Of a DNA stretch of 64,000 nucleotides, positions 10,261-36,773 are shown piece by piece. The stretch's first letter is position 1. Each line of letters begins with the position of its first letter. The DNA is taken from contig NC_089867.1 in the NCBI RefSeq assembly GCF_036373705.1, positions 22,875,823 to 22,939,822 of the forward strand, in the 5' to 3' direction. Below the pieces are notes generated by a model, which was given only the letters and a program-made list of their open reading frames with translations, was not told where the DNA came from and searched no databases. The stretch is from Amia ocellicauda (lineage: Eukaryota; Chordata; Actinopteri; Amiiformes; Amiidae). The position numbers and the translations under genes were made by a program.

Positions 10261-10729
10261 CTGTAAACTAGGGATGAAGTGGTGTTGTAGAGAAACTGAA
10301 AAGTGTGTTTGGAAATGTCAAATTGAAGAGGTTCTTTACAGTGGAATTCTCAAATGTACTTTAAGGTAAAATTTAATCAAAGCTTTTCAACTGAGCCCTG
10401 AACACTAAGGAAAACGTCAGGCAAGTCCCCAAACAAACAGTCTCAGTTTAAACCACTTTCTAAGCTTTCAAAATACCTGCTGCTTGTTTGTTTTGTTTGT
10501 TGTGTTGTTGTTGCTAGGGTGCACACTCATATGGAGCAAGTTGTGCCTTTTGAAACAATGCAACCAAAGCAAAACAAAACCTTTGATAACTCCTTGTTGT
10601 CAACACAAAAAGAATCCAAATACAAATCAATATATTTATTTTAAGAGAATAAAATATCTGCAATTTGAAAACCTATTCTATTTAATTTTATATATATTTA
10701 AATATACATATTGTATATATATATATATA

Positions 10730-11949
10730 TACACTCACCTAAAGGATTATTAGGAACACCTGTTCAATTTCTCATTAATGCAATTATCTAACCAACCAAT
10801 CACATGGCAGTTGCTTCAATGCATTTAGGGGTGTGGTCCTGGTCAAGACAATCTCCTGAACTCCAAACTGAATGTCTGAATGGGAAAGAAAGGTGATTTA
10901 AGCAATTTTGAGCGTGGCATGGTTGTTGGTGCCAGACGGGCCGGTCTGAGTATTTCACAATCTGCTCAGTTACTGGGATTTTCATGCACAACCATTTCTA
11001 GGGTTTACAAAGAATGGTGTGAAAAGGGAAAAACATCCAGTATGCGGCAGTCCTGTGGGCGAAAATGCCTTGTTGATGCTAGAGGTCAGAGGAGAATGGG
11101 CCGACTGATTCAAGCTGATAGAAGAGCAACTTTGACTGAAATAACCACTCGTTACAACCGAGGTATGCAGCAAAGCATTTGTGAAGCCACAACACGTACA
11201 ACCTTGAGGCGGATGGGCTACAACAGCAGAAGACCCCACCGGGTACCACTCATCTCCACTACAAATAGGAAAAAGAGGCTACAATTTGCACAAACTCACC
11301 AAAATTGGACAGTTGAAGACTGGAAAAATGTTGCCTGGTCTGATGAGTCTCGATTTCTGTTGAGACATTCAGATGGTAGAGTCAGAATTTGGCGTAAACA
11401 GAATGAGAACATGGATCCATCATGCCTTGTTACCACTGTGCAGGCTGGTGGTGGTGGTGTAATGGTGTGGGGGATGTTTTCTTGGCACACTTTAGGCCCC
11501 TTCGTGCCAATTGGGCATCGTGTAAATGCCACGGCCTACCTGAGCATTGTTTCTGACCATGTCCATCCCTTTATGACCACCATGTACCCATCCTCTGATG
11601 GCTACTTCCAGCAGGATAATGCACCATGTCACAAAGGTCGAATCATTTCAAATTGGTTTCTTGAACATGACAATGAGTTCACTGTACTAAACTGGCCCCC
11701 ACAGTCACCAGATCTCAACCCAATAGAGCATCTTTGGGATGTGGTGGAACGGGAGCTTCGTGCCCTGGATGTGCATCCCACAAATCTCCATCAACTGCAA
11801 GATGCTATCCTATCAATATGGGCCAACATTTCTAAAGAATGCTTTCAGCACCTTGTTGAATCAATGCCACATAGAATTAAGGCAGTTCTGAAGGCGAAAG
11901 GGGGTCAAACACAGTATTAGTATGGTGTTCCTAATAATCCTTTAGGTGA

Positions 11950-11954
<5 letters not shown>
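10730..11954 (+). mobile_element. Complete Tc1/mariner transposon, DD36E type
   Basis: The element proper is 10732-11952 (1221 bp), with TA at both edges (10730-10731 and 11953-11954). Its terminal inverted repeats are 29 bp and identical: CACTCACCTAAAGGATTATT continues to AGGAACACC, and the exact reverse complement closes the element. It carries one uninterrupted transposase gene. It sits beside or within TA microsatellites, a target that gives many TA sites. Perfect ends and an open transposase suggest recent arrival. Confidence 0.93.
10880..11920 (+). CDS. Tc1/mariner-family transposase, intact, DD36E
   Basis: This 346-residue protein has no internal stop. The N-terminal ~115 residues carry two helix-turn-helix segments for binding the terminal repeats (for example SISQSAQLLGFSCTTISRVY). 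The catalytic domain follows, with the acidic residues at D155 (WSDESR), D246 (QQDNAPCH) and E283 (PDLNPIEHLW). Exactly 36 residues separate the second D from E, where classical Tc1 and Sleeping Beauty have 34. DD36E is the signature of the family described as Incomer, which is known from fishes and other vertebrates and is linked to horizontal transfer. The GGGG stretch (190-193) typical of this superfamily is present. The protein would act in the nucleus to cut and paste the element at TA sites. All key residues are present, but activity is not shown. Confidence 0.95.
   Translation: MGKKGDLSNFERGMVVGARRAGLSISQSAQLLGFSCTTISRVYKEWCEKGKTSSMRQSCGRKCLVDARGQRRMGRLIQADRRATLTEITTRYNRGMQQSICEATTRTTLRRMGYNSRRPHRVPLISTTNRKKRLQFAQTHQNWTVEDWKNVAWSDESRFLLRHSDGRVRIWRKQNENMDPSCLVTTVQAGGGGVMVWGMFSWHTLGPFVPIGHRVNATAYLSIVSDHVHPFMTTMYPSSDGYFQQDNAPCHKGRIISNWFLEHDNEFTVLNWPPQSPDLNPIEHLWDVVERELRALDVHPTNLHQLQDAILSIWANISKECFQHLVESMPHRIKAVLKAKGGQTQY

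Positions 11955-12029
<75 letters not shown>
11953..12029. repeat. TA dinucleotide microsatellite
   Basis: An almost pure TA tract that begins exactly at the right end of the DD36E transposon. A shorter AT tract lies at the left end (about 10714-10731), so the element probably jumped into one longer TA array. Confidence 0.95.
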
Positions 12030-12031
<2 letters not shown>

Positions 12032-12924
12032 TGTATATATAATATATTTCTCAATTAGATGGTAGTTTCCAGAACAAGATCTTACTCTACAAATGAATGT
12101 GTTTTAAAATGCTGTCTGCAAAACCAAGGCCACAGTGATGCAGCAGCAAAACCACACAACCGCTAACATCAAAACAAGCTGGTACAAAAACAGTGTCGTC
12201 CTAGTGTACTGTAGTGTTGTGTAGCAGTCCAGCAATATCTGCACACAAGATGGCAGTCAGGGAGAGACAGGTGGAGGGTCATCGGTGAGCTGACAGCAGG
12301 AGAACTGAGAGGCACAGAACTGGCCGGCATATGGACCTTTGATCCTCCTGAATTAATCACCAAGCGTACAGGGAGGTAGAGAAGTCTCTCATTCCCCTCT
12401 CGCTCTCGTAATCTGTCACCTGCTGCTCCCTCCTCATCTGTTTCAGCCAGGGCTGCGCAGACTGTCAGCGAAGACAAGCTGGACACCGCTGACACCTAGA
12501 GGCTGCTCTGTAATGGGTATTAACAGGGAGAAATGATTGCTAAAGTAGACGGCATCCAGAGAACCGTGGAGCTGAGGTGTGAAAAACACAGTTTGGGAAT
12601 CATGACATATTGAAGGGAGACCGTATCTCTTATGCCACCTTCAATTAAGGTTTTACAGAGTTGGTAAAAGTTTCTAAGTTTAGGTTATGGTATGTGTACT
12701 TTTAGTATTTATACAGCATTTCTCTCCTATATATGAATAACAATATTTAATGATGTACAGAATGCCTGTGTGTCTCTTCTGAACGAAAGGCACTATATTA
12801 ACTAATGAAGTAAAGCACAGGAATATGGCAACTGGATCCCAGGTTGAATTTCTTTAATAGTGTATTTCTAGCACAGTTCTTGACTTCTGAAAGCAATGCT
12901 GATCTCTGTGATCGATGGGTCAGT
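12030..12924. other. Region downstream of cfap107, probable 3' UTR and spacer
   Basis: No other gene is recognised. The part next to 12925 must contain the cfap107 3' UTR on the minus strand. No clear AATAAA on that strand was identified. Confidence 0.4.
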
Positions 12925-15788: not shown

Positions 15789-16660
15789 GTACACCGATCA
15801 GCCATAACATTATGACCACCTGCGTAATATTGTGTAGGTCCCAAAACAGCCCTGACCCATCGAGGCATGGACTCCATTAGACCTCTGAAGGTGTGCTGTT
15901 GTATCTGGCACCAAGATGTTAGCAGCAGATCCTTTAAGTCCTGTAAGTTGCGAGGTGGGGCCTCCATGGATCGGACTTGTTTGTCCAGCACATCCCACAG
16001 ATGCTCGATTGGATTGAGATCTGGGGAATTTGGAGGCCAAGTCAACACCTTGAACTCGTGATTCATCAGACCAGGCCACCTTCTTCCATTGCTCCGTGGT
16101 CCAGTTCTGATGCTCACGTGCCCATTGTAGGCGCTTTCGGCAGTGGACAGGGGTCAGCATGGGCACCCTGACTGGTCTGCGGCTACGCAGCCCCATACGC
16201 AACAAACTGCGATGCACTGTGTGTTCTGACACCTTTCTATCAGATCCAGCATTCACTTTTTCAGCAATTTGAGCTACAGTAGCTCGTCTGTTGGCCTTCC
16301 CTCCCCACGTGCATCAATGAGCCTTGGCCACCCATGACCCTGTCGCCGGTTCACCGCTTTTCCTTCCTTGGACCACTTTTGATAGGTACTGACCACTGCA
16401 GACCGGGAACACCCCACAAGAGCTGCAGTTTTGAAGATGCTCTGACCCAGTCGTCTAGCCATCACAATGTGGCCCTTGTCAAAGTCGCTCAGATCCTTAC
16501 GCTGCCCATTTTTCCTGCTTCTAACACATCAAGTTTGAGGACAAAATGTTCACTTCCTGCCTAATATATCCCACCCACTGACAGTTGCCGTGATAACGAG
16601 ATTATCAGTGTTATTCACTTCACCTGTCAGTGGTCATAATGTTATGGCTGATCAGTGTAT
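15789..16660 (-). mobile_element. Internally deleted Tc1/mariner-like transposon
   Basis: Inverted ends containing GATCAGCCATAACATTATGA occur at 15796-15816 and, inverted, at 16630-16655; TA lies at both edges. The minus strand encodes transposase remnants in several frames: a helix-turn-helix part (about 16274-16465), then VAWSDESR (first catalytic D), then a jump straight to [20 protein letters not shown] (catalytic E). The segment with the second catalytic D is missing and frames are broken, so the element is non-autonomous. The matching place in unit 2 (near 26880) has no element, so it inserted after the duplication or into only one copy. Confidence 0.88.
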
Positions 16661-16747: not shown

Positions 16748-18395
16748 TGCCCCTAGAAAGGTTTCTTCTCGTGGTAAACCTAAATTAGTATTTCACTGAG
16801 GTTTTTACAAAAGAAAAAACAGATAACATGCCACAGGTTAACAAACTGTCCAGTTAAACTCTAAGAGATATCAAGATAAATTGAGAGGAGGTACTAAAGG
16901 GAGCAGCAGAATTAAAAACAAACAAATCACCTGGGCCAGATGGTATATTTCCAACAGTACTTAAAGAAATTAGGGAAATTATTCATAGGCCGCTAACTAA
17001 AATATTCCAAATGACACTTAGAACAGGGGATGTGCCAACTGACTGGAAGACAGCAAATGTCAAACCAATCCACAAGAAAGGGGACAAAACTGAGCCAGGA
17101 AATTACAGACCAATCAGTCTCACCTGTATTTCTTGTACAATTTTGAAACAAATTATTAGACAGAAATTAGAAGAGCATCTTAATGAAAACCATATTCTTG
17201 GTGATAGTCAACATGGGTTTAGACGAGGAAGATCATGTCTTACTAATTTATTGGAGTTTTTTTGAACATGCAACTGCAGCTGTAGATCATGTGAAAGCAT
17301 ATGATATGATATACTTAGATTTTCAAAAAGCTTTTGATAAGGTTCACACCAAAGACTGATCCTCAAATTGGAAGCTATAGGCATTCAGGGTAATGTAAGT
17401 AGATGGATTATGAACTGGCTGATGTATGGGAAACAGAGGGTGTCGATTAGAGGAATTGCCTCTAACTGGAGTGAGGTTGTTAGTGGAGTTCCACAGGGAT
17501 CAGTACTAGGGCCCTTGGTTTTTCTAATCTATATTAATGATCTGGACTCTGGGATAGTTAGCAAACTTGTCAAATTTGCAGATGATACTAAAATAGGTGG
17601 CTCAGCAGATACAATCTTGGAAGCACAGGCTATTCAAAGGGACTTTGTGGACAAGTGCAAGGTAATACATGCAGGTAACAAAAATATCCACTATAATTAC
17701 ACTATGGGAGGTACAGATCTAGATGAAGTATCGCATGAGAAAGACCTAGGAGTCTATGTGGACTCCTCACTTTCTCCATCCAAACAATGTGGGGAAGAAA
17801 TAAAAAATGCAAACAAACTGTTAGGGTATATTGTCAGAAGTGTAGAATTGAGAACAAGGGCAGTGATGTTCAGACTGTACAATGCACTAGTTAGAGCTCA
17901 TCTGGATACTGTGGACAGTTCTGGGCTCCACACTTCAAGAAAGATATCGCTGCTCTAGAGGCAGTTCAGAGGAGAGCAACCAGACTTATTCCAGGTCTGA
18001 AGGGAATGTCCTACTGAGAGACTGAGGAACTGAAACTTTTCACCCTGGAACAGAGGAGACTAAGGGAGACTTGATTCAAGTCTTCAAAATCATGAAGGGC
18101 ATTGACAACATCAAACCAGAGGAGCTTTTCCAGATCAGCAGGGACACACGCACCCGGGGACACAAATGGAAATTGGGCTTCAAGGCATTCAAGACAGAAA
18201 ACAGGAGACACTTCTTCACACAGAGAGGCGTCACAATCTGAACAAACTCCCCAGCGATGTGTGTGAAGAGACAATTTGGGAACATTAAAAAAGAGACTGG
18301 ATAGGATCCTTGATCACTTAGTTATTAATGGACACCCAACAAGCACAATGGGGAGAATGGCCTCCTCTCGTTTGGATACTTTCTTATGTTCTTCT
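16748..18395 (+). mobile_element. CR1-type LINE fragment (reverse transcriptase and 3' end)
   Basis: The plus strand encodes reverse-transcriptase motifs in order: NKSPGPDG (about 16921), NYRPISLTC (17101-17130), DSQHGFRRGRSC (17206), YLDFQKAFDKVH (about 17313-17348), SGVPQGSVLGPL (17482-17515) and FADDTKIGG (17575-17600). Frameshifts or stops near 17265 and 17345 break the frame. The 3' end finishes in copies of an 8-bp unit (TTTCTTATGTTCTT), as CR1 elements do. The endonuclease part is absent, so the copy is 5'-truncated. The clade is inferred from motif wording; Rex1 is a close alternative. Confidence 0.85.
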
Positions 18396-18480: not shown

Positions 18481-20014
18481 TACTGTGGGGGAAAAAAGTA
18501 TTTGATCCCCTGCTGATTTTGTATGTTTGCCCACAGAAAAAGAAATGATCAGTCTATAATTTTAATGGTAGGTGTATTTTAACAGTGAGAGACAGAATAA
18601 CAACAAAAAAATCCAGAAAAATGTATTTCAAAAAAGTTATACATTGATTTGCATGTTAATGAGGGAAATAAGTATTTGACCCCTTCGACTTAGTACTTGA
18701 TGGCAAAACCCTTGTTGCCAATCACAGAGGTCAGACGTTTCTTGTAGTTGGCCACCAGGTTTGCACACATCTCAGGAGGGATTTTGTCCTACTCCTCTTT
18801 GCAGATCCTCTCCAAGTCATTAAGGTTTCGAGGCTGACGTTTGGCAACTCGAACCTTCAGCTCCCTCCACAGATTTTCTATGGGATTAAGGTCTGGAGAC
18901 TGGCTAGGCCACTCCAGGACCTTAATGTGCTTCTTCTTGAGCCACTCCTTTGTTGCCTTGGCTGTGTGTTTTGGGTCATTGTCATGCTGGAATACCCATG
19001 CATGACCCATTTTCAATGCCCTGGCTGAGGGAAGGAGGTTTGATGCGGTGCAGTTGTCCTGTCCCCTTAGCAGAAAATCACCCCCAAAGCATAATGTTTC
19101 CACCTCCATGTTTGACAGTGGGGATGGTGTTCTTGGGGTCATTCCTCCTCCTCCAAACACGGCGAGTTGAGTTGATGCCAAAGAGCTCGATTTTGGTCTC
19201 ATCTGACCACAACACTTTCACCTAGTTCTCCTCTGAATCATTCAGATGTTGGCAAACTTCAGACGGGCCTGTACATGTGCTTTCTTGAACAGGGGTACCT
19301 TGCGGGCACTGCAGGATTTCAGTCCTTCACGGCATAGTGTGTTACCAATCGTTTTCTTGGTGACTTTGGACCCAGCTGCCTTGAGATCATTAACAAGATC
19401 CTCCCGTGTAGTTCTGGGCTGATTCCTCACCGTTCTCATGATCATTGAAACTCCACAAGGTGAGATCTTGCATGGAGCCCCAAACTGAGGGAGACTGACA
19501 GTTATTTTGTGTTTCTTCCATTTGCGAATAATCGCACCAACTGTTGTCACCTTCTCACCAAGCTGCTTGGCGATGGTCTTGTAGCCCATTCCAGCCTTGT
19601 GTAGGTCTACAATCTTGTCCCTGACATCCTTGGACAGCTCTTTGGTCTTGGCCATGGTGGAGAGTTTGGAATCTGATTGATTGATTGCTTCTGTGGACAG
19701 GTGTCTTTTATACAGGTAACGAGCTGAGATTAGGAGCACTCCCTTTAAGAGAGTGCTCCTAATCTCAGCTCGTTACCTGTATAAAAGACACCTGGGAGTC
19801 AGAAATCTTGCTGATTGATAGGGGATCAAATACTTATTTCCCTCATTAACATGCAAATCAATGTATAACTTTTTTGAAATGCATTTTTCTGGATTTTTTT
19901 GTTGTGATTCTGTCTCTCACTGTTAAAATACACCTACCATTAAAATTATAGACTGATCATTTCTTTGTCAGTGGGCAAACGTACAAAATCAGCAGGGGAT
20001 CAAATATTTTTGTA
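18481..20014 (-). mobile_element. Tc1-like transposon with ~210-bp inverted repeats, degenerate transposase
   Basis: Long inverted repeats run from about 18483-18690 and 19823-20012 (AAGTATTTGATCCCCTGCTG near the left end), with TA at 18481-18482 and 20013-20014. The minus strand encodes a Tc1 transposase from [14 protein letters not shown] (ATG 19653-19655). It includes an intact-looking DNA-binding part, LWSDETK in another frame, and [19 protein letters not shown] with 34 residues between D and E. Stops at about 19240 and at least two frameshifts make it a pseudogene. A near-perfect hairpin lies between the transposase start and the right repeat. In unit 2 the site is empty (AATATAGCATCACAAAG near 27211), so insertion into the TA of this copy is directly visible. 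Confidence 0.92.
19698..19794. repeat. Perfect 44-bp inverted repeat with 9-nt loop
   Basis: The left arm 19698-19741 (CAGGTGTCTTTTATACAGGT...) is the exact reverse complement of 19751-19794; the loop is 19742-19750. It lies inside the Tc1-like element, upstream of its transposase start. Confidence 0.95.
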
Positions 20015-20349
20015 GCATCACAAAGTTTGCAGTTATTATAATTTTTTGTCATAACACATAGTAAGACATTCCTAGTAAGATGTATTGTATTGTATTGATA
20101 TGTAGAGTGCTGTTGGACTGTCACATTTCAAAAGTAGAATCAGTGCATTTAAACATGACCTTTGTGTCTATATATTTGTATGGGGATATATAGATATAGC
20201 AAATACTGTAATGTTCATGAGCTTCACATATTAATTTGCTAGATGATTCTTGATATATATTGACAAATCAGATAAGATATGTATCTTAAAGAGACAAATT
20301 TTTGATTAACTCTTTCCTGTTGATACCTTCAGTTCACACTGTGCCTTTT

Positions 20350-23300
20350 TCAAAGAGTCTTCACATAGTTCACAATGCTGTTCACGGCCGGTTTGGACGA
20401 AGTGATGGTCATCCAGCCCAAGTCCATCAAACTCACGATCCCATGGAAGCCATCGGAAACATGGTACCAGGAGACGGGGATGCCCAAGTCCTCCAGACGC
20501 CTCTTGAAGAGTATCCCATCATCTCTCAGCACATCATACTCGCAGGTCAGGATGAAGGCAGGTGGCATCTTGCGGATGATGGCATCTTCCGCCAGCAGAG
20601 GGGAGATGCCGGGCTCCAGGCCTGTCTTGATGATATCATAGACTTCTCCGTCATGGGAATTGACGAATTTAGGGTGAAACCCACGTGCTTTGCACTCTGG
20701 GGGGAGTCTGTTGGGGGACAGCCACTTGCGGTACTTAAGCTTAAGGTCAACGGGCACATGGTTGCCCTCTAAGATGTCCTCAGCTACAGATGTGTCACCA
20801 TTTAGGTAGTGCAGGAAGTAGAACACTGTTTGGTCCCGGGACAGGAGAGGGACAGAGTGATTCTGTTGGTAGGAGGGGAGGTTGAAATCTACTATCTGCA
20901 GACCAGGGTAGATCAGGATTTGGGCACAAGGTGAGGTGAGAGGATGTTCCTCCTTCTCTGCCAGTCGCTGGCACAGAGCAGCTGTCAAGTTCCCTCCCGC
21001 GCTGTCCCCCCCAACTGCCACTCTACGGGGATCCACTCCGAAATCCTTGTCCGCTACCTGCAGGAAGTGACAGGTGGCAGCCTGGCAGTCATCCAGCTGT
21101 GCGGGGTATCGATGTTCAGGAGTTAGCCTATACCTGCGGGATAAATAGAAGAACAAAAATTCAAGGTCTGTCCGGCCCTGAAGGGGTTCTGCTCAGTGTG
21201 TCAGGAGGACAAAAGTGTTAGAGAGGCAATACGTACAGGCACAGACCAGACAGGAGAGAAAGATAATGGAAGCTCGGTTTCTGCCTGATAACTGGTCAAG
21301 AAGACAAATATATGATCAAACCAGGGTAAAGGCGTACGTAATGTTTAATATAAGGGGTGCGATGTATGAAGTCCAAATTGTTGGTGAAAACTGTTTCTAT
21401 CAGACCCTGTTCTTCTGGATATCAGGGTTGAACTATAGCACGGTACCACAGCACAGTGAGACAGAGACAGTGACCTTGTTTACACAGACACACAGGGAGA
21501 GACATGCAGTTGTTCAAAATCTCAGTATGTCTAGTTTATTAAACTTGAGGACAAGCAAAGAAAGTCATACCACAAATTATATACAATTTTTTAGAACACC
21601 ATAATGAATTCACAGATATGTCCTTCTGTTCCTTGTGGATGTACAGTATGTTTTATATGGAGAAGTATTAAAGTACACTTACTCAACAGATACAACTGTG
21701 GTGTCAGACTGCATGGCAATGTATCTGCATAGGTCATCGTAAGTATCTGATGAAATGCAAGAGAAGATATTGGTAAAATTCCTGGGTTGAGATGCCAACC
21801 ACTGAACTATCAGTTTAATTCTGATCTCTTCAGAGTTACAGAGTGTTTACTAGGCATGACCTGGAGCCAACACTGCAGGCTTTAGTACAAAGTGTACAGA
21901 TTAGGCAAAAAGCCAATAAACATAAAAGTATTTTAGTCCAAATGCACATCTATGCCAATTTACTCAAAATAAGATATGAAGCTTAAAATATCCAGTGTGG
22001 GCTTCTATAAGAGCCTAAATCCAGAAATAAATCAAACCACTATCCAAAAGTTGTTTTAGTTTCTTTTTAAAGTTGTTTCTCTGCTGGAATACAATTTTCT
22101 CAATTATTAGGTTCTTAATTAAAAAAAAAGATAACCATGGGCTTCCTTTCACATGGATTTATTTGGAACATAAACTAATGTATGGCCAAGATCAATATAC
22201 TTTTAAATAAGTGGAGTGACTGACCGATGGACCCCATCATCCAGCCACCGCCATGGAGATACACAAGGCCCCTGCGCTTGGTGTCCGAGGGGGCTGTGGG
22301 CTCGTACACTCTGACAGGCACATTGGCGAAAGTCAGGTCTTTGATGCGCAGCCCTGGGGGAGCAGGCTTGTTCTTGATTAGCACCCGAGATCTGAACCAG
22401 CGATTGAAACTCAACTGGTTGCAAAGCCCCAACTTCTCAAGGAGTCGTCCCTGTGGAGAAGACAAGGGAAAGAAATTGGACACATTCTGGTGGAATCCAA
22501 AAATCTTGCCATGTGAATCCAGTTAGTAAACTCATGTTGGGCCTTTACTTCGTTCTGAAATCAGAAAGCAATTGTATGGTGTCATGTTGAACCGAATGAA
22601 TCAAAACATTTGCTTTCCGATTTCAGAATCGGTTAATCAAAGCATCTGTGACTTCTGCGATACATTGCAATACATTTTGATATTATTGTGAAATACCTCG
22701 TCGGTCAGCATTAAAGGTCTGTGATGGCCTGTAGGCAGACAAATGTAGCGCTGTGGTCATAGTCACAACAAGAATTGCATGATTCCTTCTGGTGGGTGAT
22801 TCTAGATCATTGTGCACAATGTCACACATATCTAAAATGGTCTGTTTGTTGAATCTGTATTTTCATAATATTGCTGCTTGTGTATAGGATTAAATAATTT
22901 TAACATTCACTAGAAATGTGACTTAGGCTACAACTCAAATTACTCTGGAACAATAAATCTAAACAGTATGATTCAGCTAGATACAGCCTTGCTTAAATTG
23001 TATTTATCCAAGACACAAACTTCACTGAAAATAAATAATTCAGTTGCACATTAACTTGTATTGACTTAACTTGGGTTCAACAAAATTCACAATAGTGACT
23101 AAAATATAGAAATTACAGTAAATGTTTGCTGAAGACTGTTGACTGAGCAAATCACAATTTCAGAATTGAATGGCTAGCCGGGAAGTTTTGCATGGGTTCT
23201 GTGTCTCATTAATGATGTAAAAAACCAAAAGGGTATCTTGTCAAAAGTGTAGAATTGAGAACAAGGGCAGTGATGTTCAGACTGTACAATGCACTAGTTA

Positions 23301-25088
23301 GAGCTCATCTGGATACTGTGGACAGTTCTGGGCTCCACACTTCAAGAAAGATATCGCTGCTCTAGAGGCAGTTCAGAGGAGAGCAACCAGACTTATTCCA
23401 GGTCTGAAGGGAAAGTCCTACTCGGAGAGACTGAGGAACTGAACCTTTTCACCCTGGAACAGAGGAGACTACATGGGGACTTGATTCAAGTCTTCAACAT
23501 CATGAAAGGTATCGAGCACATCAAACCAGAGGAGCTTTTCCAGATCAGCAGGGACACACGCACCCGGGGACACAAATGGAAATTGGGCTTCAAGGCATTC
23601 AAGACAGAAAACAGGAGACACTTCTTCACACAGAGAGGCGTCACAATCTGAACAAACTCCCCAGCGATGTGGCTGAAGAGACAATGTGGGAACATTCAAA
23701 AACAGACTGGATAGGATCCTTGATCACTTAGTTATTAATGGACACCAAACGAGCACGATGGGGCGAATGTAAACTTTCTAATGTTCTTATGTTCTAAAAT
23801 CATTTAAATATACTTCTATAAATATTTGAATCAATAGCAATGAGTACATTTACAAGGTTTTTAATTTTTCTTGGAACATAGCTGGGGTGGCAAGTGGGGT
23901 GGCACAGCTCATTTTAAGGGTGGCAGCTGCCACCCCATGCCTCCCATATGCACACGCCCCTGCTTCCAGGACCAGGTTTAGTTATGTGGTCCCCTACCCA
24001 CATAGACTGTGGGGGGTTATAACATCATGTCTTAAATCCACATGGTGAAGAGGACATAACACACATATAGCTTTTAAATCTGACCAAGAGGAAAATACAT
24101 TGTCTGTGGTTTTAAAAGTTGATGAAAGAGTCTCCAATCCCATCTATACAATAATAATTTCAGACACTACATTGATTTTCAAAATCAAGTCTTTTGAGAC
24201 TTCTTTTTCTATAATGTCTTTTTTTTCTGTAATGTACTTGTATTTTGTGTAGATTCCCGTTGCAGGCCTAAGCTTTATCTTACTTTGATTCCCTGCTCTT
24301 ATATCATTGCATGTTTAATAGTAGGTTAGTAAAAGAATAACTAAAGTGAACTTCGGAGTACAATACTCCATACGTGCAGTTTACAATCATGAAGAAAAAA
24401 CAAAGCTAGAAAACTACAGTTATGTTAGAGGCAATATGTTACATATTTGTCCTTTCCTTGAGAACAAATGTATGTGCTCTTATCTGGGCGGGTAGATACA
24501 CAATCAGTGCTCATGAGAGCAATGACAAACATAGGCGCACTAGAAATCCAAGATATTGTCTGCATCCTCTGCGCTTATAATCTACAAATCCTTTACTGTT
24601 CTTGATTACCATTACAAAATCACTTTCTTAACAGTGTTTTGTCTAACTGTATTGTGCAACATTTTTATTCCTTTCCATGTCCTTCGAAATCAATGTCTGT
24701 AATTCCTATTGAGATGTTTTGACATATGACTAGGACATATCTGACTATGCGTTTTTACGCACAGATTCAAATCAGCCATTAATCTTTAGAAATGCCAAAG
24801 ACTCTTCGTATGCAGGAAACTGTAATGACACTTTTTATAAGTTACATGATAATAATGATGAAAATGCTGATCATAAATAGAGTTTGTTTGCAATTATTAG
24901 CCCATACTCACCACTATAGCTATCCCAACCAACATACCGTGGATGAAGCGCAGTCTCCCAGGGTTGGAGACCCCGGGTGGGATCTCTGAGTTCATTAACT
25001 CTGAATAAACAATCCCAATTAGCAGTAACAGGAAAGCTGCAAACAGCGCAGCAGCCCCCGTTATTAAAATAGCCGTGCTCAACTCCAT
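20350..25088 (-). CDS. aadacl4: AADACL4-like serine hydrolase, copy A (unit 1)
   Basis: There are four coding exons on the minus strand: 24912-25088, 22225-22450, 21683-21746 and 20350-21133 (stop TGA 20350-20352). All junctions are GT-AG and phases close to 416 aa, near the ~407 aa of human AADACL4. Residues about 4-27 form one hydrophobic membrane anchor ([19 protein letters not shown]), as in arylacetamide deacetylases, which sit in the ER membrane with the catalytic domain in the lumen. The alpha/beta-hydrolase (hormone-sensitive-lipase-like) signature is complete: oxyanion-hole HGGGW at 125-129, nucleophile S200 in GDSAGG, D356 in EYDVLRDDG and H386 in DGFHG. It should hydrolyse ester or amide bonds of lipids or xenobiotics; the natural substrate is unknown. 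The start at 25086-25088 was chosen because it precedes the anchor directly; upstream in-frame ATGs (to about 25175) would add a charged leader. The region beyond 25190 that copy B keeps upstream is missing here. The exact orthologue (aadacl3 or aadacl4) is uncertain. Confidence 0.93.
23235..23800 (+). mobile_element. CR1-type LINE, 3'-end fragment
   Basis: About 560 bp almost identical to 17835-18395, ending in CTAATGTTCTTATGTTCT. It lies in the first intron of AADACL4-like copy A, in antisense orientation to the gene, and is 5'-truncated. Copy B lacks it at the corresponding place. Confidence 0.88.
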
Positions 25089-25403
25089 TAGCTCTCTCCC
25101 CACGACACCTGTAGCATGCCTTTCTGCACCTGACTGTGCTATCGCTCGGGTCCTTATCTCCTCATGAATATGCATGACATGACCCAGGGTCCATAGTAAT
25201 CAGCAGCTACAGTATCAAGGTTTTTCTAACAGACTGTAGATGTCAGTGTAGAGCCCTGATTTAGACCTCACACAAGATGTAGATTTTGACTGGAGCACAA
25301 AAACTATGGTTTGTTTGACATCATGGTAAAAGCCCAATAAAATCATGCAATTTATGCTGGGCAAGGAAGAGCTCTGGTCCAACACTAATTAGACCATCTA
25401 CAG

Positions 25404-26185
25404 CAGGAGTACTCAATTATTTTGTGTCAGGGTCCAAATTTCTTGGTCAAGGTATAGTCAAGGTCCAGACATCAGAGGGAGGGGGAGGAGGTATTCACAC
25501 CTTCAAATGCCCCTTTCCAACACACACACAATTCTGTGAATTAGTAATATAACCCGTTGCTTATATTTAGCACATTCATTTGACAAAGTACAAAAAAAAA
25601 ACGTTTAAATAAATGTAAATATTAGTACTAAAACGATTTTGATAATTGGAGACCTGAAATTTGCAATTCTGAGTCATTTCAAAATCAAAAAACATAGCTC
25701 AAAATCTCCATGAAATCAGGCAGATTTGGACTCAAACATATCTTTGCTTCACAACCACATATCAACCGAGATTATGCAGCAAACTAGACGTGGTTTCTGG
25801 TGATTGTCAATCACAAAGATCTATCAGAGATCTATTTCGGTGGGCCTCTATAATTGAAATGGGTGAGGATGCACAATTCTCGATTTGTGCGCTGCTAGAA
25901 ATATGCATCTTCATTGGAAATCAGCCGTTTCCGCCTCTGATGTAGGAGTTTCCAGGTGAACACAAGCTATGGCACCGTGCCCCCACCCACCCCTGGTCAT
26001 GTTTATGCACTTTTATATTTTGGAGGTGAGGTTGAAATATGTCCACTCGACAAACGATCTGCAGTTTAGCTGTTTATTTATGGAAATCAGGAAAACAAAC
26101 TGAATACCTGTTGTTTTTGTTTTGCTTTGTTTTGTAAAAGTGACGCTCTTGTCCCAGTCCAGAATTGCCTATTTCCTATTGTGCA
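25404..26185. other. Unit-1-specific insertion of unknown type
   Basis: Unit 1 and unit 2 align up to about 25403 (CTACAG, as at 36236) and again from about 26190. The ~780 bp between have no partner in unit 2. The left edge reads CAGGAGTACTCAATTATTTT, similar to some hAT ends, but no matching right end was found. It has no coding frame. Confidence 0.4.
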
Positions 26186-27256
26186 TGTCTAGGATGTATG
26201 TTCTGCTATAAGTGCTCAACAAGAACATTACCAATCAAATTATTTATAAACAGTTTATAATGGCCACCATAAAACAATTGTGTAACAGTTTTCATTTTCA
26301 TTGTAGAAACAAGTCATACAGCAGAGATGGACCAAGATGTGAGAAAGAGGATCATTTTATTTTATGTGACAAAGCAGAGCAATTTGAGGAATACAGGTTG
26401 GCCTCTAAAGTTTTTTTTTTTTTCCTTTCAGTGCAATCCAACTTCTGTCCTCTATCACAACCTGCTGTAATTTGGGAGATCTTAAAATACTACAATATAG
26501 CCATTGTAAGCCACTGCATTTTCTGGAAAATGCTTGCGGTTAGCACACAATTGTCCGGGGGCCAGGCCAAGAATCACAGGCTGGAACCTCCTCAAGAGTT
26601 TTTGAATAAATTTGTTTGAGAGATTTTTACAGTACTGTGGCCAAACGCAGGCACCTAAACCTAATTGTTGCTTTTGAGGCTCCTTTAGGTTTGTTGCTCT
26701 TATTTTTCATTTTTTGACAAAAGTAGATTCAAGCACTTGAATCATGAATCACCATTGACTTGAGGTCCCCAGATTGTGTCCCGTTTCATAGAAGTGCAAA
26801 CGTTTACCAAGTCAAGTTAGGGAAAAGCAAATTTTACCAAATCTCTACAGTAAAGTACCAGTACTTATAACAGTACTTGTGTATTGCTCAGAGACACACT
26901 AAGGACATATTATTATATTGGAAACAAAAGTTACAAATAGCTCATAAGTGTTCTTTTTTCTTTTCTTATTTTCCTTCTAATTCAAAATCTTGTTTTTATT
27001 TGTTATTCTTCAGTAAGAGGAATTTACATTTGAGCCAGCACTCTGTAAAGGGACCCTCAACTTTAAACAGGCTATAACGTAAAATAACATGAACAAATTT
27101 ATAAATATAATTACTTCCTGTAATGATCAGTGATTTTTTTAAAAATATATATAAAAAAATACATACATTTAAAAGACCCAAAACATAATTTAAATCATCT
27201 TGGAAGTGAAAATATAGCATCACAAAGTTTTCAGTTCAAATAACACATAGTAAGAC

Positions 27257-29338: not shown

Positions 29339-29640
29339 AAGACATTCTTGTAAGATTTATTAGATTTTATTGATATAGTGTGCTGTTCAATTTGTGCGTC
29401 ACATTTGAAAAACAGGATAAGTTCAAGATCAGGCATTTAAATAATACCCAAGACCTATGAGTCTATATATTTGTATCCTCAGAGATAAACAAATACTGTA
29501 GTGTTCATGAGCTTCACATATTAAGTTGTTGGATGATCCTTTATATAAATTAACACATCAGATAAGATACTTAATTTAATTGCAAGTATTATCATGTAAA
29601 GAGACATGAGACTTAAAATTTCTGTGCACACTGTCCCATT

Positions 29641-32600
29641 TCAAAGAGTCTTCACATAGTTCACAATGCTGTTCACGGCCGGTTTGGTCGAAGGGAAGGA
29701 CAGCCAGCCTTGGTCCATGAAGCTCACGATCCCATGGAAGCCATCGGAAACATGGTACCAGGAGACGGGGATGCCCAAGTCCTCCAGGCGCCTCTTGAAG
29801 AGTATCCCATCATCTCTCAGCACATCATACTCGCAGGTCAGGATGAAGGCAGGTGGCATCTTGCGGATGATGGCATCTTCCGCCAGCAGAGGGGAGATGC
29901 CGGGCTCCAGGCCTGTCTTGATGATATCATAGACTTCTCCATCATGGGAATTCATGACTTTAGGGTGAAACCCACGTGCTTTGCACTCTGTGGGGAGTCT
30001 GTCGGGGGACAGCCACTTGCGGTACTTAAGCTTAAGGTCAACGGGCACATGGTTGCCTTCTAAGACGTCCTCAGCTACAGATGTGTCACCGTTTAGGTAG
30101 TGCAGGTAGTAGAACACCATGCGGTCCCGGAACAAGACAGGGACAGAGTGATTCTGCTGATACGACGGGAGGTTGAAATCTGCCATCTGCAGAACAGGGT
30201 AGATCAGGATTTGGGCACAAGGTGAGGTGAGAGGATGTTCCTCCTTCTCTGCCAGTCGCTGGCACAGAGCAGCTGTCAAGTTCCCTCCCGCGCTGTCCCC
30301 CCCAACTGCCACTCTACGGGGATCCACTCCGAAATCCTTGTCCGCTACCTGCAGGAAGTGACAGGTGGCAGCCTGGCAGTCATCCAGCTGTGTGGGGTAT
30401 CGATGTTCAGGAGCTAGCCTATACCTGCGGGATAAATAGAAGAACAAAAAGTCAAGGTCTGTCCGGCCCCGTCTGCTCAGCGTTGCGTTTTTCATCTCAT
30501 AATAAGATCCAGCGAGAATTCACAAATTATGTTTAGGGTAAAAAAAACTAAAACGATATATATTCTAAACCTGTTTTTGTGACTTAGTGGATCCTTTAAA
30601 CACTGACACATATTTTCAGAAGATCACAAGCACATTTTGTTCTGCAGCAAAATCACCCTCTGGATATTCTGAATTGGGAATTGTTTTGTTGACAAAAAAA
30701 AATGATAGTTAGAAAAGTTTAAAGTATGGAAGCGTATTACTGCCACCCGGGAAAAAAAAAAAAAATCCGTATTTTGGGGGCGTGTTACTGCCAGCGGATT
30801 TTTATTTTTATTTTTATTTTTTCATGTGTGTTGTTGCCACAAACAATTGTAGTCCAAGACCATTTGCAGTTCTTATGGGTAATCTCACTATACGACAGAA
30901 CTGGATAGGAAGGGTAGAAACTTAAACTGACATATTACTTGGGTGAGACACTGTAACATGACTCCTCCGCTTGAGTTTCCACAAAGCCCTGGTGAATGCA
31001 TTTTATACCCATGTAGCTTCCCATGTTTACCTATTTCTGCCACCACTAACAATGCTACTTCAAGTAAAGCTGACATGTTTTCTATTAAAACCCTTTTGAA
31101 AGTTGTCATACTGAGCACAGTTCCATTTACGTGACTCAAACATTGTAATATATCTTCATGCTTTACACCAAGGTTAAAGTAAAAGTGGACAATGTCTGAA
31201 ACACTTGCAATTCCTGTTTAGCTAGTGAAACTGGGATCATATGGTATATGAGCACGTTACAAGTGACTTAACCACTCATCCAAAAATATCTGTACAGTGT
31301 TAAGCCATGTTGTGAAACCAGTTTTTTCGGTGTAGTGGGCTTAACTCTCTACTGTGCTGGAGTGGGCGAACAGGGAACTCCGACTATACTTGCTATTAGC
31401 ATTTTGTCTGGTACATGTTTCTAATTAGTATATTTTGTGGCAGTATTTTGTTTTTGTTTCATGACGACACAACACAATGAAATAAGTCAGGCTTTTTTTT
31501 AGCACGATTCGCAGGAGCAATATAGTTTCATTTCCTGTCCAGTTCTGTCGAATCGCGATTACCCATAAGAACTACAAATGGTCTTGGACTACATTTTTTT
31601 TTTCTTCGTGGCAACAATACGCACCCCAAAAAATAAAAATATCCTCTGGCAGCAATACGCCCCCAAAATACGAAACAAAATTAATAAAATTGACATCGTC
31701 TTTAAATATCGTGCTTAGCTCAGATTGGCAAAGTAATTCACTGCAACAGAAACAGATAAAGATAATACAAGAGGCAAACTGGTTTCATCCAGATTTATGT
31801 CTTAGCAGGTCAATTTGCAAACCATAACTCTCTCAGTGCGACTAGTTTATTAAGGTTGAGGACAAGCAAACAAAGTCATGCCATTCATGAAATACACATT
31901 TTTAGAAGACCATAATTAATTCACAAATATCTCCTTCTGTTCCCTGTGGATAGACTGATTCAGACAAGCATTAAAGTACACTTACCCAACAGATACAACT
32001 GTGGTGTCAGACTCCGTGGCAATGTATCTGCATAGCTCGTCGTAAGAATCTATTGAAATGCAAGAGAAGATATTGGTAAACATGCCAACCACTGAACTAT
32101 TAAATCAAAAGACAAAGGGGTTTAATTCTGAGCTCTTCAGAGTTCGACCTGGTGCCAACACTGTTACTACAAAGTGTCCAGATTAGGCAGAAAGGCAACA
32201 CTTAAAAGTATTTTAACCATAAATACACATTCATGCCAATTTACTCAAAATCAGTTATTAAGCTTAAAATATCCAGTGTCTGGTGTGGACTTCTATAAAA
32301 AGAGCATAAATCCCCAAATAAATCAAACCTCTATCCGTGTGTTTGTTTGTTTCTTTTTAAAGTTCTTTCTCTGCTTGAATACTAATTTCTCAATTGTTTG
32401 GGTTTTTTAAGTAAATATTGGCAGACACAGTTGGTTGGTCTTCCATACTGCATGGGCTTACTCTGCCTTACTCATGGGATTATTTGTTGTGTCTGTTTTC
32501 AAAAGAAAAGTCTCTGCTCGACATAGATTAGTGTGCCATAGGTCAATATAATTTTAAATAAGTGGAGTGACTGACCGATGGACCCCATCATCCAGCCACC

Positions 32601-34399
32601 GCCATGGAGATACACGAGGCCTCTGCGCTTGGTGTCCGAGGGGGCTGTGGGCTCGTACACTCTGACAGGCACATTGGCGAAAGTCAGGTCTTTGATGCGC
32701 AGCCCTGGGGGAGCAGGCTTGTTCTTGATCAAGAGCCAAGAAGTGAACCAGCGAGTGAAACCCAACTGGTTGCAAAGCCCTAACTTCTCAAGGATTCGGC
32801 CCTGTGGAGAAGACATGGGGGAGAAATTAGACACATTGTCATGTTATCCAAAATTGACCATGCCATTTGATCCAGCTAATTTAATTCGGGTCACCCCGAA
32901 ACCCAAATTTCTAAAATTATTAAGCATTTTCAATTAGGGAAATCCATTCCTTGATGACTGGAAGGGTAGTCAGGTGTTTTTTGTTTTTTTCCAAATTATC
33001 TGCAAATTACTGAAATGACCAGGAGAGATCTATATGGCATTGCCTGATTGGTCCATATTTCAGTGTGACTGTAAGTAATATGCTGTGCAAAAGTAGTCTG
33101 ACTGCAAATACTGCACACAACGCTGGTGCTGTCCTGAACTGTTTCCTGCTCTAGCCCTGATACTCCTGTCTGTGGTCTTGCTCCTTTTCTTTCCCCAGTC
33201 TGCCGCTATGTTTCACTACATAGCAACATGTAATCACTTAGTTCTCATTCCAAAGTGCATGTATACACAAGTCATAAATACAAGAACTTGAATACCCAAA
33301 AAATCATGGAATATTAAAATAGCGATTACATTTGCTTTGATTAATTTGATTAATTATCTCAACACTAGACCAAAACACTATCTGTTTAACGGATGAGATG
33401 ATTATTTCAGGGTGACCTTTACAATCTGCTGACTTCAGGACCAAATTTGGTTATGTGGTCCCCTACCCACATGGACTGTGGGGAGTTATAACATCATGCC
33501 TTAAAGCCACAAGGTTAAGAGGACACAACACACATATAGCTTTTAAATGAGACCAAGAGGAAAATAAAATGTGTGTGGTTTTAAAAGTTGATGAAAGAGT
33601 CTCCAACCCTAGCCATTAAATAATAACAATTTCAGACACTACATTGATTTTGTCTGTAGAGTCTTTGTTTTCTAGAATTCACTTCAGAGAAAATTGTGTT
33701 TTGTGTAGATTACTGTTGAATCTTCCTTTGATTCCCTGCTCTTACATCATTGTGGACGTTTGACATCTAATAATCCATTAAATAATGCAAAATGGATGAC
33801 TGATTCAGAAGTAGGCTAGTAAAAGAATAACTAAAGTGAACTTTGGAGTATAATACTTAGACTGTTTGGGTTTCCCTTAGATTTTTTGTAACAATGTGTT
33901 TAATTTACAATCCTGAAGAGGAAAAAAGGTAGAAAACTACAGTTCTTATGTTACATATTTGTCCTTCCTTGAGAACAAATGCATGTGCTCTTATCTGGGG
34001 GGGTGGGGTAGATACACAATTACACAATCAGTGCTCAAGGGTAAGAGGAATGACAAATACGATTCGCAGCAGAAATACGAAATACAACTCATTCTCTGCG
34101 TCCTCAGCGCTAGAGAGCAAATTTACTGTTGTTTCCATTACACAACCACTTTCTTAACATCAATGTTTTGTCTAACTGAATTGTGCAACGTTTTTATTTA
34201 TTTCTACGTCCGTCGAAATCAAGGTCTATAATCTCTTACTGATAAGTTTTGACAGAGTCATGTCATCATCAAATCCCGATGCAAGCAACGCATGAAAAAT
34301 ATGCGTTTTTACGCACAGATTCAAATTAGCCGATAAGCTGGATAACTTCCAAAGAATCTTCCTGTGTTGGAAACTGTAGCGACATATTTGATCAATTGC

Positions 34400-34443
<44 letters not shown>

Positions 34444-34725
34444 AAGAAGAAGAAGAAGAATGAATGAATGAATGAATGAATGAATGAAGAATGAATGATG
34501 ATAACGATAATAGTTGCAGTTTGTCTGCAATTATTAGCCCATACTCACCACTATAGCTATCCCAACCAACACACCGTGGATGAAGCGCAGTCTCCCAGGG
34601 TTGGAGACCCCGGGTGGGATCTCTGAGTTCATTAACTCTGAATAAACAATCCCAATTAGCAGTAACAGGAAAGCTGCAAACAGCGCAGCAGCCCCCGTTA
34701 TTAAAATAGCCGTGCTCAACTCCAT
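29641..34725 (-). CDS. aadacl4: AADACL4-like serine hydrolase, copy B (unit 2)
   Basis: There are four coding exons on the minus strand: 34549-34725, 32576-32801, 31986-32049 and 29641-30424 (stop TGA 29641-29643). Each has the same length as in copy A and the protein is 416 aa. The N-terminal anchor, HGGGW (125-129), S200 in GDSAGG, D356 and H386 are all kept, so it should be a working ER-membrane esterase. Compared with copy A there are roughly thirty substitutions. They cluster in exon 2 (LGFTRWFTSWLL for [12 protein letters not shown]), exon 3 (SYDELCRYIATES for [13 protein letters not shown]), the segment VPVLFRDRMVFYYLHYL, and the stretch just after H386 (VSFMDQGWLSFPSTKP). Exon 1 differs at a single residue. 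At the exon 3/4 border this copy has G156 (VSVGYRLAPEH), closer to the usual form of the family than the E in copy A. The open frame continues upstream of the chosen ATG (34723-34725) as in copy A. Which copy is closer to the ancestral gene is not settled. Confidence 0.93.
30725..31690. mobile_element. Inverted-repeat element in intron 3 of copy B
   Basis: About 30765-30915 is largely the reverse complement of 31500-31680. Shared blocks include GTATTTTGGGGGCGT, TGTAGTCCAAGACCATTTG and GTTCTTATGGGTAATC, followed by CGACAGAACTGGA. The middle has no clear coding frame. The corresponding intron of copy A is about 550 bp and lacks it. Outer ends and target duplication could not be fixed, so the family is unknown. 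Confidence 0.7.
34401..34487. repeat. Compound microsatellite TGA / AGA / TGAA
   Basis: TGA repeats to about 34443, then AGA repeats, then TGAA repeats to about 34487. It lies in intron 1 of AADACL4-like copy B, about 60 bp from exon 1, and is absent from copy A. Confidence 0.95.
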
Positions 34726-34829
34726 TAGCTCTCTCCCCACGACACCTGTAGCATGCCTTTCTGCACCTGACTGTGCTATCGCTCGGGTCCTTATCTCCTC
34801 ATGAATATGCATGTCATGACCCAGGGTCC

Positions 34830-36040
34830 CACGTTTCTTCAAAAACAGCTGAATTGCGCCAACTGGCACCTTACCAAGACTCGCTGGGAGGCGCTTTTCA
34901 CACCAATTACAAACGCCTTGCACTTTTTTTAACACTATGAGGGGACTTTACTAGGCTGGGGGTCATGGACTGTTTATTAAGCCAAGATTTGAGTCCGTCT
35001 GTCGGTGTAAAGCTGCATCCCCAGCCGTCCCCTTGATCCAGAGATACTAGAAGAAGAACACCAGTGTGTTTGTTCAATAGGGATCTGTGAAATAAAAATT
35101 AAGTCGTTATGTCGGAAGGGTGTGTAGACTGATTCAGGCAAAAGCTTTTATAACGTGTAAACAGGGAAAACCAGTCTACTTCTCATAGCCCCTACGCAGG
35201 CAAGTATGCAAGACACAGCCAAGCTTGGCATCTCTGCCCGTCCTCTGCCAGAGGCACTGTGCGGCTGTATGGTGACCTCGGACAGGGGATGGTGGTGCAC
35301 CTTGAATTGTGCAGTCCGTGTATAATCCACATGGGTTTGGTTTCTTCTGCCTCTAGACCTATAGAGGATCTTGGCCATTTCAATGTCCTACCCAGGTGCC
35401 CAGTCTGTGACGTCAGCAAACCGTCCAGTGAAGTGGACACGACAAAAAGGACCGGGACGCAGCGGAATGGTATTGTCGCCATTGCCAATATATATATATT
35501 TTTAACACAACTGCAGCAGCAATAATATTTGTGGTCACAGTGCGGCGACAAATTACTGCTATAAATTGTTGAACTAGGCGATTGACTAGCAGTTTACATT
35601 CTTACAAGTCAACCTACAAACCACAGACATTTGTTTGTTGACTAAATACCATAATTTTACTTTGTTTTGCAGGATATTTGTTTTCCATTACAGAAAAGTA
35701 AAATGATTATTTATAAATAGTCCCAGATAAAAACTGCTGATGTACCATTTGTGTATTTTTACATAGAAAATGCTATACATTGTTTTGAAATTAAAACGGT
35801 AATTTTACCCACTTGTGGGAAAAAATAAACCTATCAACGGTATAGTGTTGTAATTTTACTGTAATGTGCATGTGAATTAATATAGTGTTTTAATATGCAT
35901 TATAAGGCCACCAAAATACTACACAACTGGGGATGTGTGGCTTTTGTGGACATACTCCGTGTTGAGAATTTAACAACAACAACAATTATTATTAAAGTAG
36001 TGTGCATTACACTGTAGCAGCATCAGTTTCAAAAGTTCTG
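34830..36040. other. Upstream region kept only by AADACL4-like copy B
   Basis: Unit 1 jumps from the equivalent of 34830 (GACCCAGGGTCC, 25184-25195) to the equivalent of about 36003, so this ~1.2 kb is private to copy B. It includes a GC-richer block (35180-35480) with an open frame on the plus strand that I do not recognise. The promoter of copy B should be here; no TATA box is obvious. Confidence 0.55.
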
Positions 36041-36773
36041 TAATAGACTGTAGATGGCAGTGTAGAGCCCTGATTTAGACCTCACATAATACACAGTGTG
36101 TGTATTTAGACTGTAGAGATGTGGGTTTTGACTGGAGCACAAAGGCTTTGGTTTGTTTGACATGGTAAAAGCCCAATATATCATGCCATTTGTGCTGGGA
36201 AAGGACAAGCTCTGGTCCAACCCTAATTAGATAAGCTACAGAAATGAAATTCAGTGTGTGTCTAGTATACATGCAATAGCAGCTCACATTTCACATATAT
36301 TTATTACACTTAAGTTCTGCTGTAGGTGCTCAACCAGAACATTAACAATCTTATGAAACAGCCACCATAAACAATTCTGTAATTGTTCGAAATTTCAATG
36401 TAGAAAAAAGTGGACCTGGATGTGAGAAATAAATCATTTTAATTTACGTGACAGAGCAGAGCAAACTGAAGAATACAGGTTGGCCTCTAACGTTTTTTTT
36501 TCCTTTCAGTGTAAGTAAACTTTTGTCCTCTCCACCACAACCCACTGTAATTTGGGGGAGCTAAAAGACTACAATATAGCCATTGTAAGACCTGTTTTTT
36601 TTGTTTTTTTTTTACCTATCACATTTTCTGGAAAGGCCTGCTTGCGGTTAGCACACAGTTGACCGGGGGCCAGGCCAAGAATCACAGGCTGGAACCTCCT
36701 CGAGAGTTTATGAATTTATTTGTTCAAGAGATATTTTTACAGCGCTTGTGCTCCATGGCCAAACGCAGTCACT

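Follow-up and report, generated by a model that had tools for sequence, protein, structure and literature searches.

An apparently complete Tc1/mariner element of the Incomer (DD36E) type within a TA array

Positions 10732-11952 of the window, meaning the whole 64-kb stretch of DNA that was analysed, very probably represent an entire DD36E/Incomer transposon, autonomous by the look of its structure, that sits within a TA microsatellite. The reading is drawn from sequence features, which are as follows:

10732-11952, plus strand: putatively complete Incomer-type (DD36E) Tc1/mariner element, 1221 bp, defined by its ends, open reading frame (ORF) and catalytic spacing
10732-10760, plus strand: left terminal inverted repeat (TIR), 29 bp, complementary to the right end at 29/29 positions
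11924-11952, minus strand: right TIR, 29 bp, pairing with the left end
10880-11920, plus strand: transposase ORF, 346 aa from ATG to stop, with D155, D246 and E283 (DD36E)
10714-10731, no strand assigned: left flank, (TA)9, including the TA at 10730-10731 that adjoins the element
11953-12028, no strand assigned: right flank, (TA)38, including the TA at 11953-11954 that adjoins the element

The first-pass annotation had described an unbroken transposase frame of 346 codons between identical 29-bp inverted ends, and both statements hold. The two ends are complementary at every position. When the 29-bp end was searched for with up to 3 mismatches, it occurred twice in the 64-kb window, both times as the TIRs of this element, and 100 dinucleotide-preserving shuffles gave 0 matches. 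The longest stop-free run of the element in six frames is the 346 codons of the transposase; base-shuffling the element 500 times gives a longest run of 95.7 codons on average and 214 at most. The stop-to-stop frame begins at the same base as the ATG, so a stop codon lies directly 5' of it.

Two related Tc1-like elements, here called E2 and E3, are found downstream on the opposite strand:

15792-16657, minus strand: E2, a related Tc1-like element, internally deleted, 866 bp, with 28-bp ends that carry 1 mismatch
18494-20011, minus strand: E3, a decayed DD34E Tc1 element, delimited by the outer ends of 190-bp inverted repeats (96.3%); its true ends may differ

E2 lacks the central part of its catalytic domain, beginning just behind the first catalytic D and extending past the second; its frame is broken, and its catalytic spacing is no longer readable. 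The remaining pieces show 42% (71 aa), 51% (82 aa) and 55% identity to the transposase. E3 carries 3 stops in its aligned parts, and its reading frame changes. At 19698-19794, just ahead of where the E3 transposase frame starts, lies a near-perfect palindrome of 97 nt (96.9%).

Several further features were recorded in the window. Regions 20063-26654 and 29339-36772 are tandem copies, with matching pieces 69-96% identical; Abhydrolase_3 frames lie in them on the minus strand, with Pfam E-values of 6.4e-38 and 7.4e-39. A 540-bp direct repeat (17823-18359 and 23230-23769, 95.6% identity) overlaps the end of a reverse-transcriptase frame at 17341-17955 (Pfam RVT_1). An inverted repeat of about 300 bp (7643-7967/8332-8626, 80.6%) is perhaps a fold-back element, and an exon-like frame at 50712-51092 matches short-chain dehydrogenases (PF00106, E 1e-9).

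The TA flanks noted in the first pass are present at 10730-10731 and 11953-11954, but both belong to the surrounding (TA)n. Because the element sits in this array, with 9 units to its left and 38 to its right, the flanks are no proof of a target-site duplication: any element located within such an array would have TA on both sides. Arrays of at least 9 units account for 99 of the 4011 TA dinucleotides of the window, and one of its three Tc1-like elements is located in such an array. We claim no preference of insertion for TA arrays from one element in three, which are too few.

The element contains zero stops, frameshifts and TIR mismatches. Taken together, the three signals limit divergence since insertion to less than 0.014-0.022 substitutions per site (95%), a bound that assumes neutrality, 0.05-0.15 indels per substitution and frame-shifting by 2/3 of indels, all of these rates being our own assumptions. 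The corresponding 95% bounds are 0.020-0.037 for stops plus frameshifts in the ORF, 0.052 for the TIRs alone and 0.065 for stop codons alone. These values point to a fairly young insertion, with about 2% neutral divergence at most on the assumed rates. The intactness of one copy bounds its age and goes no further, because missense or regulatory decay would stay invisible.

We give just short of an even chance to the view that the copy can still move, or has done so very recently, in this genome. The intact frame and ends and the combined divergence bound speak for it, and the description of Incomer by Sang et al. reasons likewise for the 33 ray-finned fishes with intact copies (PMC6875036). 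Each signal taken singly, however, gives a looser bound than the combination. Judged from the sequence features listed above, recent activity of the copy is plausible.

The first-pass annotation saw no visible decay and took this as a sign of recent or ongoing activity. Its observation stands for stops, frameshifts and TIR mismatches, but these bound the age of the copy without showing activity, and the CpG pattern leans towards decay. The observed/expected ratio of CpG is 0.32 in the element and that of TpG+CpA is 1.49, versus 0.46 and 1.27 in the whole window. The left flank gives 0.31 and 1.32, the right flank 0.49 and 1.26, and the decayed E3 0.29 and 1.34. The direction of both ratios in the element is that of CpG decay and not of a fresh copy, although the source copy may already have carried this pattern.

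It is a serious possibility, though one that we hold to be below even, that this is a dead copy, outwardly whole but disabled by a missense change or by having no promoter or poly(A) signal that works. In the first helix-turn-helix (HTH) of the transposase, residue 36 is Cys (TGC), and E2 has Arg at the aligned place. A CpG transition would be compatible with the codon context TCATGCACA, a hint that Cys36 may be a CpG-type missense in this HTH. However, E2 is 42% identical around residue 36 and therefore says little about which residue is ancestral, and Cys36 may be normal in Incomer. A GRPR-like sequence between the HTHs is reported for most, not each, of the Incomer transposases (PMC6875036). 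The sole match to a loose GRPR-like pattern here is GRKC at residue 60, and this replacement is a further point for a dead copy. A nuclear localisation sequence is among the published Incomer features, and basic runs are present in the transposase, for example RKKR at residue 130. A scan for the two signals AATAAA and ATTAAA found neither on the plus strand from 10732 to 12700, as a disabled copy might show. Against all of this stands the lack of any stop, frameshift or TIR mismatch.

The transposase matches two Pfam families above their cut-offs: HTH_Tnp_Tc3_2 over residues 71-142 (E 5.7e-17, 62.2 bits, cut-off 31.5) and DDE_3 over residues 151-295 (E 2.3e-14, 53.9 bits, cut-off 28.6). The first HTH scores 19.9 bits with HTH_23, under the Pfam cut-off of 24.6. 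With a Tc1-type HTH and a DDE_3 transposase, TIRs and TA on both sides, the element belongs to the Tc1/mariner superfamily. Among solved structures, the sole match to the transposase at E up to 0.01 is the Sleeping Beauty transposase SB100X (5cr4, E 1.1e-42, residues 119-346); raising the limit to 10 adds one match, which is unrelated (E 0.99). Residues D155, D246 and E283 align with the D, D and E of Sleeping Beauty. From this alignment and established knowledge of DDE transposases, it follows that they are the predicted catalytic residues.

A scripted count gives 36 residues between D246 and E283, and in the same alignment the spacing is 34 in SB100X and 34 in the decayed E3; the transposase has two extra residues between the second D and the E relative to both. 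The count and these alignments bear out the first-pass statement that the spacing is 36 and not the 34 of Tc1. A miscount in what is really an ordinary DD34E Tc1 element would agree with Sleeping Beauty, itself DD34E, being the sole convincing match among solved structures, but the scripted value and the two-residue gap needed against both SB100X and E3 make this very improbable. On spacing, DD34E/Tc1 in the narrow sense was likewise rejected, since it has 34 residues there and 36 were counted.

A domesticated host gene of transposase origin, which would also present an open frame, is the least credible reading and one that we effectively discount, for domesticated transposase copies usually lose their ends, whereas here perfect TIRs tightly enclose the ORF (3 bp separate its stop codon from the right TIR) and D, D and E are intact.

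The Incomer-type reading is the one that agrees with the published anatomy. Incomer (DD36E/IC) elements are described as about 1.2 kb long, with a transposase of about 346 aa, TIRs of 22-32 bp and a TA target-site duplication (Sang et al. 2019, PMC6875036). The type element in Rhinella marina has 1225 bp, 346 aa and 29-bp TIRs, and intact copies of ray-finned fish are 1169-1229 bp long and have TIRs of 24-32 bp (PMC6875036). The first-pass assignment to a DD36E, Incomer-type element is upheld as far as spacing and published anatomy go, which makes the element a candidate member of the Incomer clade. It fits Incomer by its anatomy and spacing, both compared with the published description.

In later papers, DD36E/IC is treated as a sibling clade seemingly derived from DD34E/Tc1 (PMC7731502, PMC7093834), or as seeming to belong to the DD34E/Tc1 intra-families (PMC9777934). 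'Incomer' and 'within Tc1' are therefore not exclusive, and the either/or test of the first-pass annotation, in which a place within DD34E Tc1 would count against Incomer, is not a clean one. In bees, six DD36E/IC elements are reported, a complete transposase being encoded by none according to that account (PMC8472432).

The remark in the first pass that Incomer has spread between vertebrate lineages is made by the Incomer paper itself (PMC6875036). Group 1 Tc1 elements are also reported to have moved, in this case between teleosts and lampreys (Kuraku et al. 2012, PMC3516227). All six primers given for Group 1 in that paper have a site in E3, with 0, 3, 1, 3, 2 and 1 mismatches; two of the six also have a site elsewhere, with 5 mismatches, which was the set limit. 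Judged by primer sites alone, the link between E3 and Group 1 Tc1 would be a resemblance: likeness, not membership. A fuller scenario, in which a mobile Incomer copy reached the host lineage by recent horizontal transfer and now lies within 10 kb of a decayed Group 1-type Tc1, seems to us unlikely, though well short of negligible.

Searches outside the window covered collections that hold no animal genomes and are silent on copies in fish. Within that scope, the transposase has no confirmed relative in viral contigs or prokaryote genome contigs, the element and transposase have no match in phage or plasmid collections, and the element has none in E. coli genomes. Viral spread and contamination of prokaryotic data were rejected as explanations, as none of the viral, phage, plasmid, prokaryote or E. 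coli collections yielded a confirmed relative. A short peptide pattern matched 8 and 125 stretches in genome contigs and 48 in viral contigs, none of them confirmed by tblastn, and another viral-contig search matched no stretch. The 21-base TIR string and shorter strings are not printed in any of the paper full texts searched.

For the Incomer-type copy, a route of movement can be proposed along the lines known for Tc1/mariner. The single ORF would yield the transposase, whose N-terminal HTH regions would bind the 29-bp ends. An RNase-H-like site formed by D155, D246 and E283 would then excise the element, which would be joined to another TA, as expected of TA-targeted insertion in this superfamily. 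By the same general knowledge, the TA array probably predates the insertion.

Taken alone, the element has little significance. Incomer is found mainly in ray-finned fish (132 species, 33 of them with intact copies), and intact copies are also reported from 3 frogs and others (PMC6875036). Should the copy prove able to jump, it could be put to use as a natural short-ended transposon of 1.2 kb, and the known map of Incomer invasions could gain its host.

Comparison with known systems runs from distant to close. The NCBIfam profile of IS630 (NF033545) matches residues 14-317 (E 1e-26), but its score of 94.1 bits is under the curated cut-off of 100. Sleeping Beauty, a DD34E Tc1 element, shares the catalytic core over residues 119-346, shows 38% identity in the alignment that also includes E3, and differs in its spacing (34 versus 36 here) and ends: most Sleeping Beauty and ZB TIRs are 180-300 bp long (PMC9777934), against 29 bp here. 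Group 1 Tc1 of lampreys and teleosts belongs to the same superfamily, and E3 with its primer sites lies about 6.5 kb from the element; E3, however, has a spacing of 34 and 190-bp inverted repeats and is not the element under study. With Incomer, the element shares a length of about 1.2 kb, a 346-aa transposase, 29-bp TIRs, flanking TA and a spacing of 36. It differs in having 1221 bp, whereas the type copy from R. marina has 1225 bp, and in reading GRKC where most Incomer transposases have a GRPR-like sequence. All told, it looks like an ordinary copy within the already described Incomer (DD36E) group of many fishes.
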